Shown: in pieces, positions 2,964 to 9,164 of the stretch | How positions within the stretch are numbered: position 1 is the first letter of the stretch | Layout: every line of letters begins with the position of its first letter | Program-made: the position numbers and the translations under genes | Assembly (NCBI GenBank): GCA_947378425.1 | Contig: CANCJV010000002.1 | Span: 62,001 to 126,000 of the forward strand | Source of the DNA: Synechococcaceae cyanobacterium | GTDB lineage: Bacteria; Cyanobacteriota; Cyanobacteriia; PCC-6307; Cyanobiaceae | DNA: 64,000 nucleotides | Direction of reading: 5' to 3' | Notes under the pieces: generated by a model | What the model saw: the letters and a program-made list of their open reading frames with translations, nothing else | Told to the model about the DNA's origin: nothing | Databases searched by the model: none

Positions 2964-3698
2964 CTAGGGGGGCAGGGGACTGCCATCGTGGCTGTGCATC
3001 ACCCGTCCGGCACCGCGCAGCTCCTGGCGGTAGTGGCGGGCCACCGGATCCTGGTTCTGGGGGTTGAGGTCATCGATGCCCAGGCCGTTGCGGCCATGCT
3101 CGCGCCCGGAACTGTGCAGGTAGCGACCGCCGCTGAGGTGCAGCCCCACATGGGTGCAACGTCGCGCAGTGCCGAAGAAGATCAGATCACCGGGTTCCAG
3201 CAGGCTGGTGACACCTGGCTGCACCGCCACGGGCTGACAGAAGCGCTCCTGTAGGTAAGCGTCGCGCGGCAGCCAGATGCCCGCCGTGGCGAAGCTGGTC
3301 TGGATCAGGCCGGAACAGTCGAAATCCGGTCCAAGGTTGCCTCCCCATAAGTAGACATTGGCCTTCTGCATCGCCGCCACAGCAAAGCTCAGCACCTGCT
3401 CGAGCCTCCGGGCGATCGTGGCGCGCTGCAGTCGCGGCAGCAACGCCGGTGCGGCTGGCAGGCCATGGCTGCGGAGTTCGGAGGACTCCAGCCAGCAGGG
3501 GTAGCCGTCCTCCAGTAGCCGCACCCGCAGTCGCCCATGGGCGGGCCCCTCCAGCACCCGCAGTCGCCGCCCCGCTGCCACCTGGGTGGCCAGTCCAGGG
3601 CCCTGGGGGCGGCTGTAGGCATCCAGGGGATGCCGCAATTGCCAGTGGCTGTCCTGGGCGATGGGATCGGTTTCGTCACCGATGCCTAATCTCACCAT
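2964..3698 (-). CDS. NlpC/P60 family cysteine peptidase
   Basis: About 244 residues. The C-terminal half carries the NlpC/P60 catalytic Cys in DFDCSGLIQ and the His in CTHVGLHLSGG, with GDLIFFG between them. The N-terminal part is probably an SH3-like wall-binding domain. Such enzymes cut the D-Glu/diaminopimelate bond in peptidoglycan stem peptides. I chose the ATG at 3698 (MVRLG), because a start further upstream would run into the divergent hydrolase. No clear signal peptide is visible. Co-directional with the downstream GT2 gene. Confidence 0.85.
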   Translation of the reverse strand: MVRLGIGDETDPIAQDSHWQLRHPLDAYSRPQGPGLATQVAAGRRLRVLEGPAHGRLRVRLLEDGYPCWLESSELRSHGLPAAPALLPRLQRATIARRLEQVLSFAVAAMQKANVYLWGGNLGPDFDCSGLIQTSFATAGIWLPRDAYLQERFCQPVAVQPGVTSLLEPGDLIFFGTARRCTHVGLHLSGGRYLHSSGREHGRNGLGIDDLNPQNQDPVARHYRQELRGAGRVMHSHDGSPLPP

Positions 3699-3721
3699 GA
3701 ACCGCGTCGGGGGTAGGGGTG

Positions 3722-4654
3722 ATGGCGTTCTACAGCCCGGATCCACCAATGGACCAGACCCTGCGGTCGCTGGTGGCCTCGCTGGAGAGCGACGGCCGGC
3801 CGGGGCTGTCCCAGCAGCTCTCGATCACCTGGTTGCGCTACCCCGCCTCCTTGTTGCAGCAGGGCGCCAACCTGGACGCGACGGGCCTGGCGAAGCTCCA
3901 GGTGCGCGGCGCCAGCTGGGCAGGGGAGCGCCAGCGCTATCCCGCCAGTGTGGTGAAGCTGGTGTATCTGATTGCTGCCGAGGCCTGGTTGCAGCGCCAG
4001 CTGATCGAGGACGGCGAGGAATTACGCCGCGCCCTGGCCGACATGATCCGGGATTCGAGCAATGACGCCACGAGCCTGGTGCTCGATCTGCTCAGCGGCA
4101 CCACCAGTGGTCCGTCCCTGCCACCGGAGCGCTTCGACGCCTGGAGGCGCCAGCGGCAGCTCGTCAATGGCTGGTTGGTCGGCCTGGGCTGGCCAGAGCT
4201 GGAGGGCTGCAATGCCTGCCAGAAGACCTGGGGGGATGGCCCCTACGGCCGGGAACGGGACTTTTACGGCGATCGCCAGCAGAACCGCAATCGCCTCAGC
4301 AGCGAGGCCACCGCCCGGTTGCTGCATGGTGTGATCGCCGGTGCCATGGTGTCGCCGCCCGCTTCGGTGCGCATGCAGGACGTGCTCAGCCGCTCGCTGG
4401 ATCCGGAGCATCGGGCGGCCGACCCGGAGAACCAGGTCGATGGTTTCCTCGGGTCTGGTCTGCCGATCACGGCAAAACTCTGGAGCAAGGCCGGCTGGAT
4501 GAGCCAGGCGCGGCACGACGCGGCCTATGTGGAGGTGTCAGGTGCCGATCCCTTCCTGCTGGTGGTCTTCAGTGAAGGGAAGCAGGCGGCCGCCGACGAG
4601 GATCTGCTGCCCGCCATCAGCTCCGGGTTGCTGCAGGCCTGCCGCCAGAACTGA
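3722..4654 (+). CDS. serine hydrolase of the class A beta-lactamase fold
   Basis: About 310 residues. An SxxK motif (SVVK, near residue 76-79), an SxN element (DSSND, near 112-114) and a KAG in place of KTG/KSG are in the order expected for beta-lactamases and penicillin-binding proteins. There is no signal peptide, which is odd for a periplasmic enzyme. The real role may be a non-lactamase hydrolase. The ATG at 3722 follows a G-rich possible ribosome binding site; ATG at 3749 is an alternative. The start is only 23 bases from the divergent NlpC start. Confidence 0.8.
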   Translation: MAFYSPDPPMDQTLRSLVASLESDGRPGLSQQLSITWLRYPASLLQQGANLDATGLAKLQVRGASWAGERQRYPASVVKLVYLIAAEAWLQRQLIEDGEELRRALADMIRDSSNDATSLVLDLLSGTTSGPSLPPERFDAWRRQRQLVNGWLVGLGWPELEGCNACQKTWGDGPYGRERDFYGDRQQNRNRLSSEATARLLHGVIAGAMVSPPASVRMQDVLSRSLDPEHRAADPENQVDGFLGSGLPITAKLWSKAGWMSQARHDAAYVEVSGADPFLLVVFSEGKQAAADEDLLPAISSGLLQACRQN

Positions 4655-4741
4655 ATTGGCCTCAGCGCTCCTGAACCGGGACGGATGAGGCCGATTAAGG
4701 TCTGGCTGGGTTACAGAGTTGGACGGAAACCGTCCAGGAAC

Positions 4742-4829
4742 GGAGAGGGAGGGATTCGAACCCTCGACAGAAGTTGCCTCCTGTAACTCCTTAGCAGGGA
4801 GCCGCTTTCAACCACTCAGCCACCTCTCC
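4742..4829 (-). tRNA. tRNA-Ser (GCU)
   Basis: An 88-base class II tRNA. The acceptor stem is GGAGAGG pairing with CCTCTCC, the anticodon loop reads CTGCTAA (anticodon GCT), a long variable arm follows, and the T arm is GGTTCGAATCC. CCA is not encoded. It decodes AGC/AGU. Confidence 0.96.
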
Positions 4830-4910
4830 AGCGGCTCAGTGAGCTTACCTGACCACCTCGCGTTCTCAGGCCAGCGGTGCCGGCACAAGGTCTGGGCTGA
4901 GCCCCCGGTC

Positions 4911-7403
4911 TCAGTCGCCGCGGAAGAGCCGTTGCACCCGTCGGCTGTCGATGTTCACCAGCAGGTCGTAGGGGATGGTGCCGGCGCGCTCGGCTGCTTC
5001 CTCGGGGCGCAGCACCTGGCCCTCGTGGGCCCCGAAGAGCAGCACTTCATCACCGACACCGGCATCGGCCAGGGACGAGAGATCCACCGCCATCGAATCC
5101 ATCGAGACCCGGCCGAGCACCCGCACCTTCCTGCCCTGGATCATCACCTCACCTCGGTTGGAGAAGCTCCAGGGCACGCCGTCGTTGTAGCCGGCGGCGA
5201 CGATGCCGATGCGCTGCTGCTCGGCGGTCACCACGTAGGTGCCGTTGTAGCCCACCCGCTGGCCGCGGCTCAGGGTGCTCACCTGCACCAGCCGGCTGAG
5301 GAACGCCACCGCCAGCTCCAGTTCGATCGCTGAGGCCACGGCGGGCGAGGGATAGAGGCCGTAGAGGCCGAGGCCCAGGCGCACCATGTCGCAGCGGGCG
5401 TTGGCGAAGCGCACGGCGCCGGAGGTGGCGGCGGCATGCACCACCAGGGGTTCGTCGCTCTCGGCGCGGAGCATGGTGACGGCCGCTTCAAAACGGGCCA
5501 GTTGCTCCTGGGTGTGGTCATCGGCGGCTGGGTCGTCGGCGCTGGCCAGGTGGGTCATGACGCCACTGAGCCGCACCACCCCGGAACCCCGCAGCAGGCG
5601 GGCCACCCCGAGGGCCTCCTCGGGGCCGACACCGACCCGGCCCATGCCGCTGTCGATCTCAAGATGGACATCAAGGCTCGCGTCCATCGTGCGCAGGCTG
5701 GCCACCAGCCGCTGGGCGCAGGCCAGGGAGTACACCACCGGGGTCAGGCGCCAGCGCACCGCCTTGTCGATTTCGTCGCTGTCCATCAGCATCACCAGCA
5801 CCGGGCGATGCACCCCGGCCCGCCGCAGGGCGGCCCCCTCGTCGGCTGCGGACACGCCGATCCAGTCGACTCCGCTCTCCTGCAGGGCCAGGGCGAGGCG
5901 GGCCAGCTCGGTGCCGTAGGCCCAGGCCTTGAGCACGGCCAGGATCGCCACCTTCGGGCCGCAGAGGGCGCGGAAGCGGGCGACGTTGTTGCGCACGGCA
6001 TTGAGATCCACCAGGAAGCGGCGCGGGGCCATCGATTCCCAGATGGCCGAGGCGGCGCTGGCCAGGCCGAGGCGGGCGGCGCCCTTGAGCAGCACGGTGT
6101 CGCCGGGCTGGGCCAGGCTGCGTATGGTGGCGCCCAGGTCGCTGCTTTCGGCGAGCTCGATCACCGGTGCCTGGGGCCGGATTGCCCGCCAGGCGGCGGC
6201 GGTGTGAGCGTTGGCCGCATGGGGCAGCAGCAGCAGATGGCTGAAGTCCCGTTCCGCCGCCAGTTGGCCGATCAGGGCATGTTCACGCGCTTCGCCGTGG
6301 CCCAGCTCCCCCATGCCGCCGAACACGAACAGCCGCCGTCCCGAGTCGGGGCCGGAGCTCACCGTTTCCAGGGCGACCTGGACGGAGATCGGATCGTCGC
6401 TGGCGCTGTCATTGACGATCGTGATGCCATCCGGAGTCCGCCAGGTCTCCATGCGGGTCGGGCCGAAGCTGTAGTCCTGCAGCACAGCCACGATCTCGTC
6501 CACGCTGACACCCAGCTGCAGTCCTGCGGTCATGGCGATCAGCAGATCCTCCACCAGGGGAGCGGAACGGGTGCGCACCGGCAGTCGCACCCGTTCGCCG
6601 CCGAAGTCGAGGCTGAGCAGCAGGCCGCTGCCGTGGGGTTTCTGCTCGAGCAGGCGGGGTTCGCCTCGGCCCGGCTGCAGGCGGCGGCAGGGCAGAGGGA
6701 TGGCATCCAGCAGTGGATCGGCGGGGGCGATCAGCCAGCCTGCGGGCGGTAATTCCCGGAACAGGATCATTTTTTCGCGGGCGGTCACCTCACGGCTGCC
6801 GAAACCGCCCAGATGGGCCAGGCCCACGTTCACCAGCACGCCGAAGTCGGGCGCCAGGACCCTGGCGATGCTCGCCATCTCGCCGGGAGCGGAGACGCCC
6901 GCCTCGAACACCCCCAGTTCGGTGCCAGCGGGGGCGGAGAGCACGGCCAGCGGCACCCCCACCTGGCTGTTCCAGCTGCCGGGGCTGGCGGCGACCCGAT
7001 AGCGCTGGGCCAGCAGGGCCGTCAGCGCGCTCTTGACGATCGTCTTGCCGTTGCTGCCGGTGATCGCCACCACCTGGCGGATGTGCTGGCGGCGATACCA
7101 GGCCGCCAGGATCTGCAGGGCTTCCAGCGGGTCGTCGACTTCGATCCGGGCCAGCTCCGCCGAGCTGGTCGCCAGGGAGGCGTGCCAGCCGCGACGCACC
7201 ACCACCAGAGTGGCCCCGGCGGCGATCGCCGCAGCCACGAAGCTGTGACCATCCCGGCTGCGGCCCCCCAGGGCGAAAAAGGCATCGCCCGCCTGCACCC
7301 GCCGCGAGTCGATGGCCACCGCCCGGATCCGAGCGGCCGCCGGATCGCCGTGGAGTTCGCCTGCCAGCAGACCGGCCAGCGTGCGGGGGTCGGGGAGGGC
7401 CAT
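4911..7403 (-). CDS. fused MurF ligase / alanine racemase
   Basis: One uninterrupted 830-residue frame. Residues 1 to about 455 are a Mur ligase: P-loop TGSNGKT at 115-121, then NSQVGVPL and FEAGVSAPGEM. This half should join D-Ala-D-Ala to the UDP-MurNAc tripeptide. From MAPRRFLVDLNAVRNN on, the rest is a PLP alanine racemase: PLP lysine in AVLKAWAYG, GYNGTYVV with the catalytic Tyr, and a final VNIDSRRVQRLF. MurF motifs read as TIVK and NSQVGVP, as in the Bacteroidetes bifunctional enzyme, rather than canonical TTTK and NNEIGVP. Substrate supply and use in wall synthesis are thus on one chain. Confidence 0.92.
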   Translation of the reverse strand: MALPDPRTLAGLLAGELHGDPAAARIRAVAIDSRRVQAGDAFFALGGRSRDGHSFVAAAIAAGATLVVVRRGWHASLATSSAELARIEVDDPLEALQILAAWYRRQHIRQVVAITGSNGKTIVKSALTALLAQRYRVAASPGSWNSQVGVPLAVLSAPAGTELGVFEAGVSAPGEMASIARVLAPDFGVLVNVGLAHLGGFGSREVTAREKMILFRELPPAGWLIAPADPLLDAIPLPCRRLQPGRGEPRLLEQKPHGSGLLLSLDFGGERVRLPVRTRSAPLVEDLLIAMTAGLQLGVSVDEIVAVLQDYSFGPTRMETWRTPDGITIVNDSASDDPISVQVALETVSSGPDSGRRLFVFGGMGELGHGEAREHALIGQLAAERDFSHLLLLPHAANAHTAAAWRAIRPQAPVIELAESSDLGATIRSLAQPGDTVLLKGAARLGLASAASAIWESMAPRRFLVDLNAVRNNVARFRALCGPKVAILAVLKAWAYGTELARLALALQESGVDWIGVSAADEGAALRRAGVHRPVLVMLMDSDEIDKAVRWRLTPVVYSLACAQRLVASLRTMDASLDVHLEIDSGMGRVGVGPEEALGVARLLRGSGVVRLSGVMTHLASADDPAADDHTQEQLARFEAAVTMLRAESDEPLVVHAAATSGAVRFANARCDMVRLGLGLYGLYPSPAVASAIELELAVAFLSRLVQVSTLSRGQRVGYNGTYVVTAEQQRIGIVAAGYNDGVPWSFSNRGEVMIQGRKVRVLGRVSMDSMAVDLSSLADAGVGDEVLLFGAHEGQVLRPEEAAERAGTIPYDLLVNIDSRRVQRLFRGD

Positions 7404-7508
7404 GGAACCCGGAGGTTAGCCAGCCATGCCACGTCGAGGTGCGGGTCGTGCCGGACACCGAAGGGATGGCCGGATCTCGTTAAAGTTGATTGAACTTCGG
7501 GGGGTGGC

Positions 7509-8009
7509 ATGGGCCACGTTCTCGTGCTGAATGCGTCCTACGAACCGCTCAACATCACCACCTGGCGGCGGGCGATGGTGATGCTCCTGAAGGGGAAGGC
7601 TGAGGGCCTGGAGCACGATCCCAACCACCGAATCCGGCCGGATCATCTGCTCCCCACCGTGATTCGCCTGCATCAGTTCGTGCGGGTGCCCTACCGCCAG
7701 ATGCCGCTCACGCGCCGCAATGTTTTCCAGCGGGATGGCCATCTCTGCCAGTACTGCGGTTTCAGCGGTGAGCCGCTCTCGATCGATCACGTCGTGCCCC
7801 GCAGCCGCGGTGGCGCCGACATCTGGGAGAACGTCACCACCGCCTGTCTGCCCTGCAACGTGCGCAAGGGCAGTCGCACTCCGCGGGAGGCGGCCATGCC
7901 CCTGCGCCGGGAGCCGCGCCGGCCCCCCACCAGCCTCAACTTTGAAACCATCCGCCGGATTCGCGCCGGTCAGAATCGCGAATGGGCCAAATATGTGATC
8001 GGCGCCTGA
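7509..8009 (+). CDS. HNH endonuclease
   Basis: A 166-residue protein with an HNH fold: a CxxC pair (CQYCG) near residue 79, the catalytic IDHVVPRSRGG, and a second pair, CLPC, near 116. The N-terminal MGHVLVLNASYEPLNITTW is typical of a cyanobacterial and bacterial HNH family encoded as a single core gene. Its substrate is not known. It is divergent from murF-alr (about 105 bases between starts) and convergent with prfA (39-base gap). Confidence 0.9.
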   Translation: MGHVLVLNASYEPLNITTWRRAMVMLLKGKAEGLEHDPNHRIRPDHLLPTVIRLHQFVRVPYRQMPLTRRNVFQRDGHLCQYCGFSGEPLSIDHVVPRSRGGADIWENVTTACLPCNVRKGSRTPREAAMPLRREPRRPPTSLNFETIRRIRAGQNREWAKYVIGA

Positions 8010-8048
8010 CCTCGGCATCGGCGAGCGAACGTTTTCTTTCCCCTGCGC

Positions 8049-9164
8049 TCAGCCATTGGCGCCGCCGGCCTGGCTGGCCAGCTCCTGCAGCTGGCGGCCC
8101 TGTTCAGCGGCGATGCAGGCTTCGATCACATCGTCGAGCTGGCCGTTGAGCACGGGATCGAGTGAAAAGTTCTGGCCGAGACGGTGGTCCGTGACCCGGT
8201 TGTCCTTGGCGTTGTAAGTGCGGATCTTCTCGCTGCGATCACCGCTGCCCACCTGGGAGCGGCGCTCATCCCGTTCAAGGGCATTGGCTTCTGCCAGCTT
8301 CCGCTCGTACAGCTTGGCCCGCAGGATCTCCATGGCCCGTTCACGGTTCTGCAGCTGGGAGCGCTCCTGGGTGCAGAACACCCGGATGCCGGTGGGTTTG
8401 TGCAGCAGGTCGACAGCCGTTTCGACCTTGTTGACGTTCTGGCCGCCGGCGCCGCCGGAGCGGGCGGTGCTGATCTCCAGATCGCCCGGATCGATCTGCA
8501 CCTCCACCGGATCGGCCTCGGGCATCACCGCCACCGTGGCCGTGGAGGTGTGTACCCGTCCCTGGGATTCGGTGGCCGGCACCCGCTGGACCCGATGCAC
8601 GCCGGCCTCGAACTTCAGGCGGCTGTAGACGCCGTCGCCGCGGATCGAGAGGATGAGTTCTTTGTAGCCACCCAGGTCGGCTTCGGAGGCACTGACCGGC
8701 TGCACCTGCCAGCCGCGGCTCTGGGCGTAGCGCTCGAACATGCGGGCCAGATCGCCTGCCCAGAGGCTGGCTTCATCGCCGCCTGCCCCGGCCCGGATCT
8801 CCAGCATGACGCTGCGCTCATCGCGGGGGTCCGACGGCAACAGGGCCAGGGTGAGGCGCCGCTGTAGCTCGTCGATGCGCCCTTCCAGCGACTCCAGCTC
8901 GCTGATGGCCAGTTCCACCAGCTCCGCCATGGCGGCATCGTCGCGGTGCTCCTTGAGCAACCTGTGGGTGTCCAGCTGCTCCTGTTGCAGCTTGCGCCAT
9001 TGCTGGTGGTCGAGCACCAGGGGCTCGAGTCGGGCCCGTTCGCGGGCGATCGTCTGCAGTCGGTTCGGATCCGAGGCCAGCGCCGGATCGGCCAGCTGCC
9101 GTTCCAGGGCCTCGAAGGTGCGGCAGGCCGTTTCCAGGCGTTCGCTGAGCAGGGCAGGGTCCAT
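8049..9164 (-). CDS. prfA: peptide chain release factor 1
   Basis: 371 residues, close to the usual length. The GGQ tripeptide that triggers peptidyl-tRNA hydrolysis lies at about 240-242 in [10 protein letters not shown]. The PAT tripeptide at 196-198 (VPATESQG) reads UAA/UAG and marks RF1 rather than RF2. It acts in the ribosomal A site. It lies after the ribosomal array on the same strand, but a strong terminator between rpmE and prfA implies its own promoter in the ~60 bases upstream. Confidence 0.97.

Follow-up and report, generated by a model that had tools for sequence, protein, structure and literature searches.

How did a cyanobacterium come to carry its alanine racemase (Alr) joined to a peptidoglycan ligase, and what might that ligase be for? 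The question is raised by a 64,000-nucleotide stretch of DNA, here referred to as the window, from a Synechococcaceae cyanobacterium (assembly GCA_947378425.1, contig CANCJV010000002.1, positions 62,001 to 126,000 of the forward strand), in which a single gene, murF-alr, encodes a MurF-like Mur ligase followed by Alr. A first-pass annotation made from the sequence of the window had proposed that this two-domain gene was transferred from Bacteroidetes and perhaps replaced the native alr. The explanation that fits our results best, to which we assign a probability of roughly 0.7, is that a fusion from the Myxococcota side was acquired in place of alr, that its Alr half is the sole racemase supply and that its ligase half is not the main MurF.

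The fusion gene and its chromosomal slot

The frame starts with ATG, runs for 830 codons without an internal stop and contains five Pfam domains, each above its cut-off, in the order Mur_ligase (residues 26-101), Mur_ligase_M (114-229), Mur_ligase_C (317-442), Ala_racemase_N (465-685) and Ala_racemase_C (699-825). This bore out the first-pass reading of one frame with a Mur ligase and then an alanine racemase, and the motifs quoted there are present as given, at residues 116-124 (GSNGKTIVK), 145-152 (NSQVGVPL) and 167-176 (EAGVSAPGEM). The best NCBIfam model was NF008897 (bifunctional MurF/Alr), with residues 10-827 aligned in the same order to positions 9-819 of the 822 in the profile, at a score of 573.7 bits that lies below the curated cut-off of 804. 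With 298.6 bits, the Alr half clears the cut-off of 168 set for the alanine racemase model TIGR00492; the MurF half, at 284.3 bits, falls slightly under the 288.6 of the MurF model TIGR01143. The frame is a genuine gene that encodes a three-domain MurF-like ligase and a complete alanine racemase.

Residues K492, Y496, R589, R675, Y719, Y739, M768 and Y812 of the Alr half are invariant in a 40-row alignment (A2); outside A2, the position of Y739 is Phe in an Acidobacteriota copy (L161). We take K492 to be the lysine that carries pyridoxal phosphate (PLP), Y719 to be the catalytic tyrosine and the others to be active-site residues. The AlphaFold 2 (AF2) model of the whole protein had a mean predicted local distance difference test score (pLDDT) of 88.8 and a predicted template modelling score (pTM) of 0.64, and it matched alanine racemases with a Z score of up to 44.1 (5fac_B; root-mean-square deviation [rmsd] of 1.9 over 370 residues). 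Because this fold search returned Alr entries throughout, the ligase half was folded apart (mean pLDDT of 89.2, pTM of 0.82). Its best match was a MurF in complex with adenylyl imidodiphosphate (AMP-PNP) and uridine diphosphate (UDP)-MurNAc-tripeptide (Z of 33.7, rmsd of 4.7, 425 residues), and nine MurF entries headed the VIA list, with Z scores from 33.7 to 29.8, 408-438 residues aligned and rmsd values of 4.7-8.1. The ligase half is thus predicted to have the three-domain fold of MurF, a match that is no proof of activity.

Four frames of the genome match PF01168, namely, the fusion, an ornithine-racemase-like frame, a YggS-family protein and one further frame, which we take to be diaminopimelate decarboxylase (LysA). 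Among the three PF01168 proteins scanned, only the fusion exceeded the alanine racemase cut-off, and the profile scan of this genome found neither a second alanine racemase nor a D-amino acid transaminase above the respective cut-off; since the genome is 98.6% complete, these absences are not absolute. Judged by its profiles, the fusion is the one frame in this genome that was recognised as an alanine racemase. Five frames match Mur ligases, including the fusion and a stand-alone MurF, whose 332.4 bits exceed the cut-off of 288.6; the other three we read, by their motifs, as MurC, MurD and MurE. The genome search suggested by the first-pass annotation thus yielded the separate murF that it had considered and no stand-alone alr above the cut-off. 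The ornithine-racemase-like protein (L002, G000:C48) scored 284.8 bits with NF040742, below the cut-off of 480.

Within the genus (n = 42), the two forms of alr are mutually exclusive: 20 genomes carry the fusion without a separate alr and 22 carry alr without the fusion. Eighteen of the 20 fusions are one full-length match at 66-100% identity, that of G021 matches one frame in two parts (63% and 70%), and that of G039 is split across two contigs (65% and 72%). Such recurrence is well outside what chance would give. A separate MurF match is present in 41 of the 42 genomes, the sole exception being a genome that is 84% complete. The fusion was found in 3 of 386 genomes of a phylum sample and in 13 of 300 genomes of a family sample, corresponding to 3 of 59 genera, and a fusion universal in cyanobacteria is thereby ruled out. 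No plasmid record covered 80% of the fusion query among the 39 records matched.

Fusion and alr share one slot, bordered by tRNA-Ser(GCT) on one side and by an HNH endonuclease-family gene on the other. The HNH gene adjoins the fusion in all 20 fusion loci of the genus and in L040, from a second genus, and the same gene adjoins alr in all 10 alr loci examined (of the 22 alr genomes). The tRNA gene formed the other border in 11 of 11 loci from 10 genomes, five of each type. Beyond HNH, the next gene is prfA in 17 of the 20 fusion loci and in every one of the 10 alr loci; where it is missing, the sequence ends in two of the three cases, and L024 has no prfA over about 830 further bases. The beta-lactamase-like gene on the other side is present in 13 of the 20 fusion loci and in each of the 10 alr loci, the misses being four loci with less than 300 bases of flank and three (L020, L021 and L024) without the gene in 1.5 kb. 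The HNH border never varied, and the outer flanks did so in a few genomes. The same gene order was seen in an alr-type genome on a single contig (L210). Of 27 loci from other cyanobacteria, 9 had an HNH match no more than 1.5 kb from alr, suggesting that the pairing of HNH with alr predates that with the fusion. Since fusion and alr occupy the same tRNA-Ser/HNH slot, the fusion replaced alr in place, as the first-pass annotation had suspected; taken together with the trees described below, such a replacement by a fusion of Myxococcota affinity is well supported. One fusion genome, G009 (locus L024), has neither prfA nor the beta-lactamase-like gene in its available flanks, unlike most others.

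Origin of the fusion

The same motifs that had been read as a mark of Bacteroidetes occur in most fusions aligned, including those of Myxococcota, and so mark the fusion family rather than Bacteroidetes. In a scan of named genomes, the matches listed included a cyanobacterial metagenome-assembled genome (MAG) at 65% identity, a Myxococcales MAG at 36% and Bacteroidota at 25-34%; the Bacteroidota group comprises 47 one-frame fusions (L070-L116), of which L075 comes from a MAG titled Thalassovita. One-frame fusions were found in 24 of 188 genomes of Myxococcota, the phylum of the Myxococcales MAG (best, 66% and 53%), and in 2 of 199 genomes of Acidobacteriota, the phylum of an Acidobacteria MAG (48% and 43%), where one more (G423) is visible only as two contig ends; both counts are lower bounds, based on matches at an E value of 1e-60 or better. 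Relatives of the best Myxococcota genome, with a match in 20 of 141 genomes, added four fusions at 66, 65, 59 and 55% identity. Six Myxococcota genomes therefore hold a fusion at 53-66% identity to that of cyanobacteria, the nearest at 65-66%.

In a quick tree of 60 rows, the 22 cyanobacterial rows (of which L029 and L068 are identical) formed one clade within Myxococcota and Acidobacteriota, and the Bacteroidota-group rows (12 of the 47) stood apart. In a careful 26-row tree, the cyanobacterial clade (100/99) was joined by Myxococcota L178 (100/99), L179 (99/99) and then Acidobacteriota (100/100); the Bacteroidota fusions, also the most distant group by identity, formed their own clade (100/100). 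A careful 31-row tree placed Myxococcota G776, G1040 and G1041 in one clade, sister to cyanobacteria (100/99), with L355 and L356 (96/96) and then L179 (100/98) outside it and Acidobacteriota further out. The halves were also analysed separately, with results in agreement. In a quick tree of the Alr half, 15 native cyanobacterial Alr proteins formed one clade (100) and the cyanobacterial fused Alr grouped with Myxococcota L178 and L179 and with Acidobacteriota (99); another Myxococcota fusion, L196, was placed towards unfused Alr. In the quick tree of the MurF half, all 41 unfused MurFs lay on one side of a branch (99) with the fused MurFs outside, and 12 cyanobacterial unfused MurFs formed their own clade (100). 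A vertical cyanobacterial origin is ruled out by these separate native clades. Because neither half groups inside the cyanobacterial clades and the fusion occurs in 3 of 386 genomes, the gene is neither of native cyanobacterial stock nor universal in the phylum, the two outcomes against which the first-pass annotation had set its proposal; its idea that the two-domain gene moved as one piece stands. By these trees, the cyanobacterial fusions are one clade nested among those of Myxococcota.

The Bacteroidota donor that the first-pass annotation had favoured shares the two-domain order and the family motifs; however, 25-34% identity (among the matches listed) compares with 65-66% for Myxococcota, and a grouping of cyanobacteria with Bacteroidota was rejected under the model used (26-row tree; approximately unbiased test P value [p-AU] of 5.6e-6), which leaves this donor extremely improbable. 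Flow in the opposite direction, from a cyanobacterium to the nearest Myxococcota genomes, would agree with G776, G1040 and G1041 being a single sister clade of the cyanobacteria. We consider it highly improbable, as further Myxococcota (L355, L356 and L179) and Acidobacteriota branch off successively outside and the fusion is found in 24 of 188 Myxococcota genomes, yet within the cyanobacterial family it reaches 3 of 59 genera. Many of the genomes are draft assemblies, as an artefact of assembly or binning would require, but for the cyanobacterial side this is excluded, and its chance overall is practically negligible: G008 is a single 3.67-Mb contig in which the fusion lies between cyanobacterial flanks, and the tetranucleotides of the G776 contig fit its own genome (r of 0.89-0.92) and not cyanobacteria (0.60-0.69), so that contamination of G776 was also rejected. 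Two frames of this contig match a radical SAM protein and an acyltransferase; HNH and prfA were not found in the 16 kb of it that were examined, nor at the loci of four further Myxococcota relatives. The G734 contig, only 7 kb long, showed an r of 0.69 with its own genome. It counts against a Myxococcota source that the phylum label is assigned only by computed kinship to L069; the Acidobacteriota label likewise follows from kinship to an Acidobacteria MAG.

Whether the slot switched once or several times was judged from neighbouring and conserved genes. A DNA tree of rpoB-rpoC1 (49 rows), which covers 19 of 21 fusion genomes since G028 and G037 had no rpoB match, rejected a single clade of fusion genomes (p-AU of 0.00145) and forced at least four changes, although other genera fall inside the genus in this tree and base composition is uneven. 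The protein version forced only one change and a 29-row subset two, and a tree of the HNH and prfA flanks (31 genomes) did not reject a single fusion clade (p-AU of 0.38). The DNA tree thus suggests several switches at the slot, with the other trees weaker or non-rejecting.

What the ligase half may do

According to a report on the Mpl structure (PMC3060825), adenine is contacted by Asn205, His323 and Asn327 and ribose by Asp373, the triphosphate is held by the P-loop, Arg358 and His376, and the metal is held by Thr115, Glu178 and His210. These residues were transferred to the fusion protein by motif spacing, a mapping of our own, and compared over 136 rows (95 fusions and 41 unfused MurFs). 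K120, E167, H197, R317 and K440 were present in all 136 rows, and K211 was absent from one; the position of D332 is Glu in cyanobacterial unfused MurFs. At position 286, Asn occurs in 41 of 41 unfused MurFs, 47 of 47 Bacteroidota-group fusions and 19 of 22 other Myxococcota fusions, and at position 334 an aromatic residue occurs in 41 of 41, 47 of 47 and 22 of 22, respectively. All 22 cyanobacterial fusion rows instead have Asp at 286 and Ala at 334, and among the eight nearest relatives compared, position 334 is A, C, T or H and seven have Asp at 286. These two losses at the adenosine triphosphate (ATP) site, as mapped here, set the clade apart. Since the 22 rows are related, the losses represent one or a few events and not 22. 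One cyanobacterial copy, L214 (G906:C1:1564717-1567200), additionally has Asn in place of the metal-site His197, which the other rows keep.

A ligase half in unconstrained decay was ruled out. Over 11 genome pairs, the ratio of nonsynonymous to synonymous substitution rates (dN/dS) was 0.142-0.340 for the fused MurF half and 0.080-0.267 for the Alr half, and the latter was lower in 10 of 11, so that the ligase half is being maintained, under looser constraint than the racemase. Over six matched pairs, the fused MurF half (0.148-0.259) was lower than the unfused murF (0.188-0.269) in five; the unfused values leave out pairs G008/G407 and G000/G008, as in two loci no frame passed the motif filter. 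In the N-terminal domain, DSR and DGH, two stretches that presumably have a role in UDP binding, are invariant across 14 cyanobacterial fusions, and the unfused MurF retains HNxxN in all 11 frames found (13 loci tried). A second MurF was present in 20 of 22 fusion-bearing genomes examined (exceptions, G746 and G429), and the Alr-fused MurF is therefore generally an extra one; the second MurF of G776 is a partial match below the cut-off, and those of G637, G658, G682 and G761 lie within a frame of 977-1046 amino acids that holds another Mur ligase match. By sequence, the fused ligase half belongs to a MurF lineage distinct from that of the 41 unfused MurFs in the comparison.

We propose that an ancestor within the picocyanobacterial family acquired the complete murF-alr fusion, probably from the Myxococcota side, and that the fusion displaced the native alr from the slot bounded by tRNA-Ser and HNH, as synteny and trees indicate. 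Judging from its residues, the Alr half would now make D-alanine (D-Ala) by the standard two-base mechanism of PLP racemases, in which K492 and Y719 would serve, and the canonical stand-alone MurF is retained, presumably for ligation of D-Ala-D-Ala. The ligase half, under purifying selection despite the lost Asn and aromatic residue, may bind a uridine-linked muropeptide precursor through its intact N-terminal domain and P-loop core and, instead of acting as the main ligase, might tether D-alanine production close to where the precursor is made or tune it there.

Our tentative preference is for such a role in binding, tethering or regulation rather than for a functional second MurF, and several observations weigh against this preference. 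The clade keeps the P-loop Lys, Glu167, Lys211, Arg317 and Asp332, as expected of a working ligase; indeed, K120, E167, H197, K211, R317 and D332, covering the P-loop, metal, carbamoyl-lysine, Arg and ribose positions, are present in 22 of 22 cyanobacterial fusion rows. Nor are the changes all peculiar to the clade: the His of HNxxN is also missing in 12 of 30 other unfused MurFs and in 47 of 47 Bacteroidota-group fusions, Ser at 335 also occurs in 10 of 47 Bacteroidota-group and 6 of 22 other Myxococcota fusions, Asp at 286 also occurs in 2 of 22 other Myxococcota fusions, and the Acidobacteriota copy L161 retains Asn at 286. The ligase half might accordingly be a working second MurF that acts after Ddl and adds D-Ala-D-Ala to UDP-MurNAc-tripeptide, with an ATP pocket that functions in spite of the missing Asn and aromatic residue, and three MurF domains predicted intact, the match to a MurF-substrate complex and the purifying selection speak for this as well. 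We nevertheless consider it unlikely, because Asn to Asp and aromatic to Ala fall at positions fixed in 41 of 41 unfused MurFs, 41 of 42 genus genomes have a separate MurF and His197 is lost in L214. Alternatively, the ligase half could join another substrate, such as a single D-Ala or other D-amino acid, to the precursor or to a recycled muropeptide, perhaps with another nucleotide. The altered adenine contact is in line with this idea, as is the separate lineage, which contains none of the 41 unfused MurFs and is thus tied to a source of D-Ala; no dedicated search was made for unfused members beyond those 41. As DSR and DGH do not vary among the 14 cyanobacterial fusions mentioned above, we regard it as rather improbable.

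Extending the favoured binding role, the ligase half shared by Myxococcota, Acidobacteriota and cyanobacteria could be a repurposed, non-ligating precursor binder that controls or positions the racemase, and the essential alr slot could have been exchanged several times between two distantly related allele forms. This combined proposal is speculative and, in our estimation, doubtful. If it were true, D-alanine supply would be set by the precursor level.

Related systems and neighbouring features

The closest known counterpart in architecture, the bifunctional MurF/Alr of Bacteroidota (NF008897, PRK11930), has the domain order, length and EAG and NSQ motifs in common with the cyanobacterial fusion, and a second MurF accompanies it in four of five genomes checked. 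It differs in identity and model score, as given above, and in keeping the ATP-site Asn and aromatic residue that the cyanobacterial fusion has lost. Myxococcota fusions outside the near clade (L180, L182 and L185) are the same fusion at 34-40% identity overall and, unlike the cyanobacterial one, retain HNxxN, Y(N/S), GDM and KASR. Stand-alone cyanobacterial alr is expected to catalyse the same reaction and occupies the same slot, but its product is 33-36% identical to the fusion within the genus, belongs to a different clade and has no ligase half. Other fusions of two peptidoglycan precursor enzymes are MurC-Ddl of Chlamydia trachomatis and MurB-MurC of Verrucomicrobium spinosum (PMC4803751). 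These join other enzymes and are separate fusion events from murF-alr. The Mur ligase fold also appears in another setting, since the fold search listed a subunit of the plastid-encoded RNA polymerase of plants (8r6s, 8xzv). We take these chains to be MurE-like with the wall role lost; one such chain is named MurE-like in a search listing.

Among the literature titles and abstract openings found, none names a MurF-Alr fusion or its status as an extra MurF. The locus offers a natural example of a wall-building gene displaced in place, across phyla, by a foreign two-part gene, with both forms within one genus. The Alr-fused MurF is also a separate lineage, beside another MurF in 20 of 22 genomes, which prompts one to ask about the role of the fused ligase in Bacteroidota, where the fusion is known. 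Through its altered ATP site, the cyanobacterial clade puts this question within reach of a test.

Table 1. Features of the murF-alr locus (positions in the window)
Feature	Position	Strand	Basis
murF-alr fusion gene	4911..7403	-	830 aa (amino acids) + stop; 20/42 genus genomes carry fusion
MurF-like ligase half (aa 1-452): N-terminal, P-loop and C-terminal Mur domains	6048..7403	-	Pfam; AF2 mean pLDDT 89.2; nine best VIA rows MurF
Alanine racemase half (aa 453-830)	4914..6047	-	TIGR00492 298.6 bits; AF2 model Z 44.1 to 5fac_B
P-loop GSNGKT (aa 116-121), retained	7041..7058	-	K120 in 136/136 aligned rows
PLVED (aa 282-286), site of HNxxN motif, lost	6546..6560	-	D286 in 22/22 cyanobacterial fusion rows
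NDSASDDP (aa 331-338), site of (D/E)xYNxxP, aromatic lost, Asp kept	6390..6413	-	A334 in 22/22 cyanobacterial fusion rows
Codon of K492, presumed PLP lysine	5928..5930	-	Invariant across 40-row alignment A2
Codon of Y719, presumed catalytic tyrosine	5247..5249	-	Invariant across 40-row alignment A2
tRNA-Ser(GCT), slot border	4740..4830	-	Same gene in 11/11 loci scanned
HNH endonuclease-family gene, other slot border	7509..8009	+	Profile matches and synteny
prfA (peptide chain release factor 1), flank	8049..9164	-	TIGR00019 476.3 bits
Beta-lactamase2-family gene, flank beyond tRNA, start approximate	3719..4654	+	PF13354 48.8 bits

Four minor observations concern the neighbours and relatives of the gene. 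An Acidobacteriota frame of 854 amino acids (L177, 1456-4017) ends in an Alr domain, and its first 470 residues match no family; it may be a mere open frame rather than a fusion. In a Flavobacteriales MAG, a MurF-Alr fusion lies within an open frame of 1722 amino acids (L074, frame 3277-8442) with about 900 extra residues upstream. The HNH protein, whose gene lies beside alr or the fusion in 31 of 31 loci (the genus and L040), has as its best NCBIfam match the HNH part of IscB, at 67 bits against a cut-off of 175. Finally, between positions 2964 and 4830 of the window, an NlpC/P60-family gene and the Beta-lactamase2-family gene are grouped with tRNA-Ser next to the alr/fusion slot, a cluster that is perhaps wall related.

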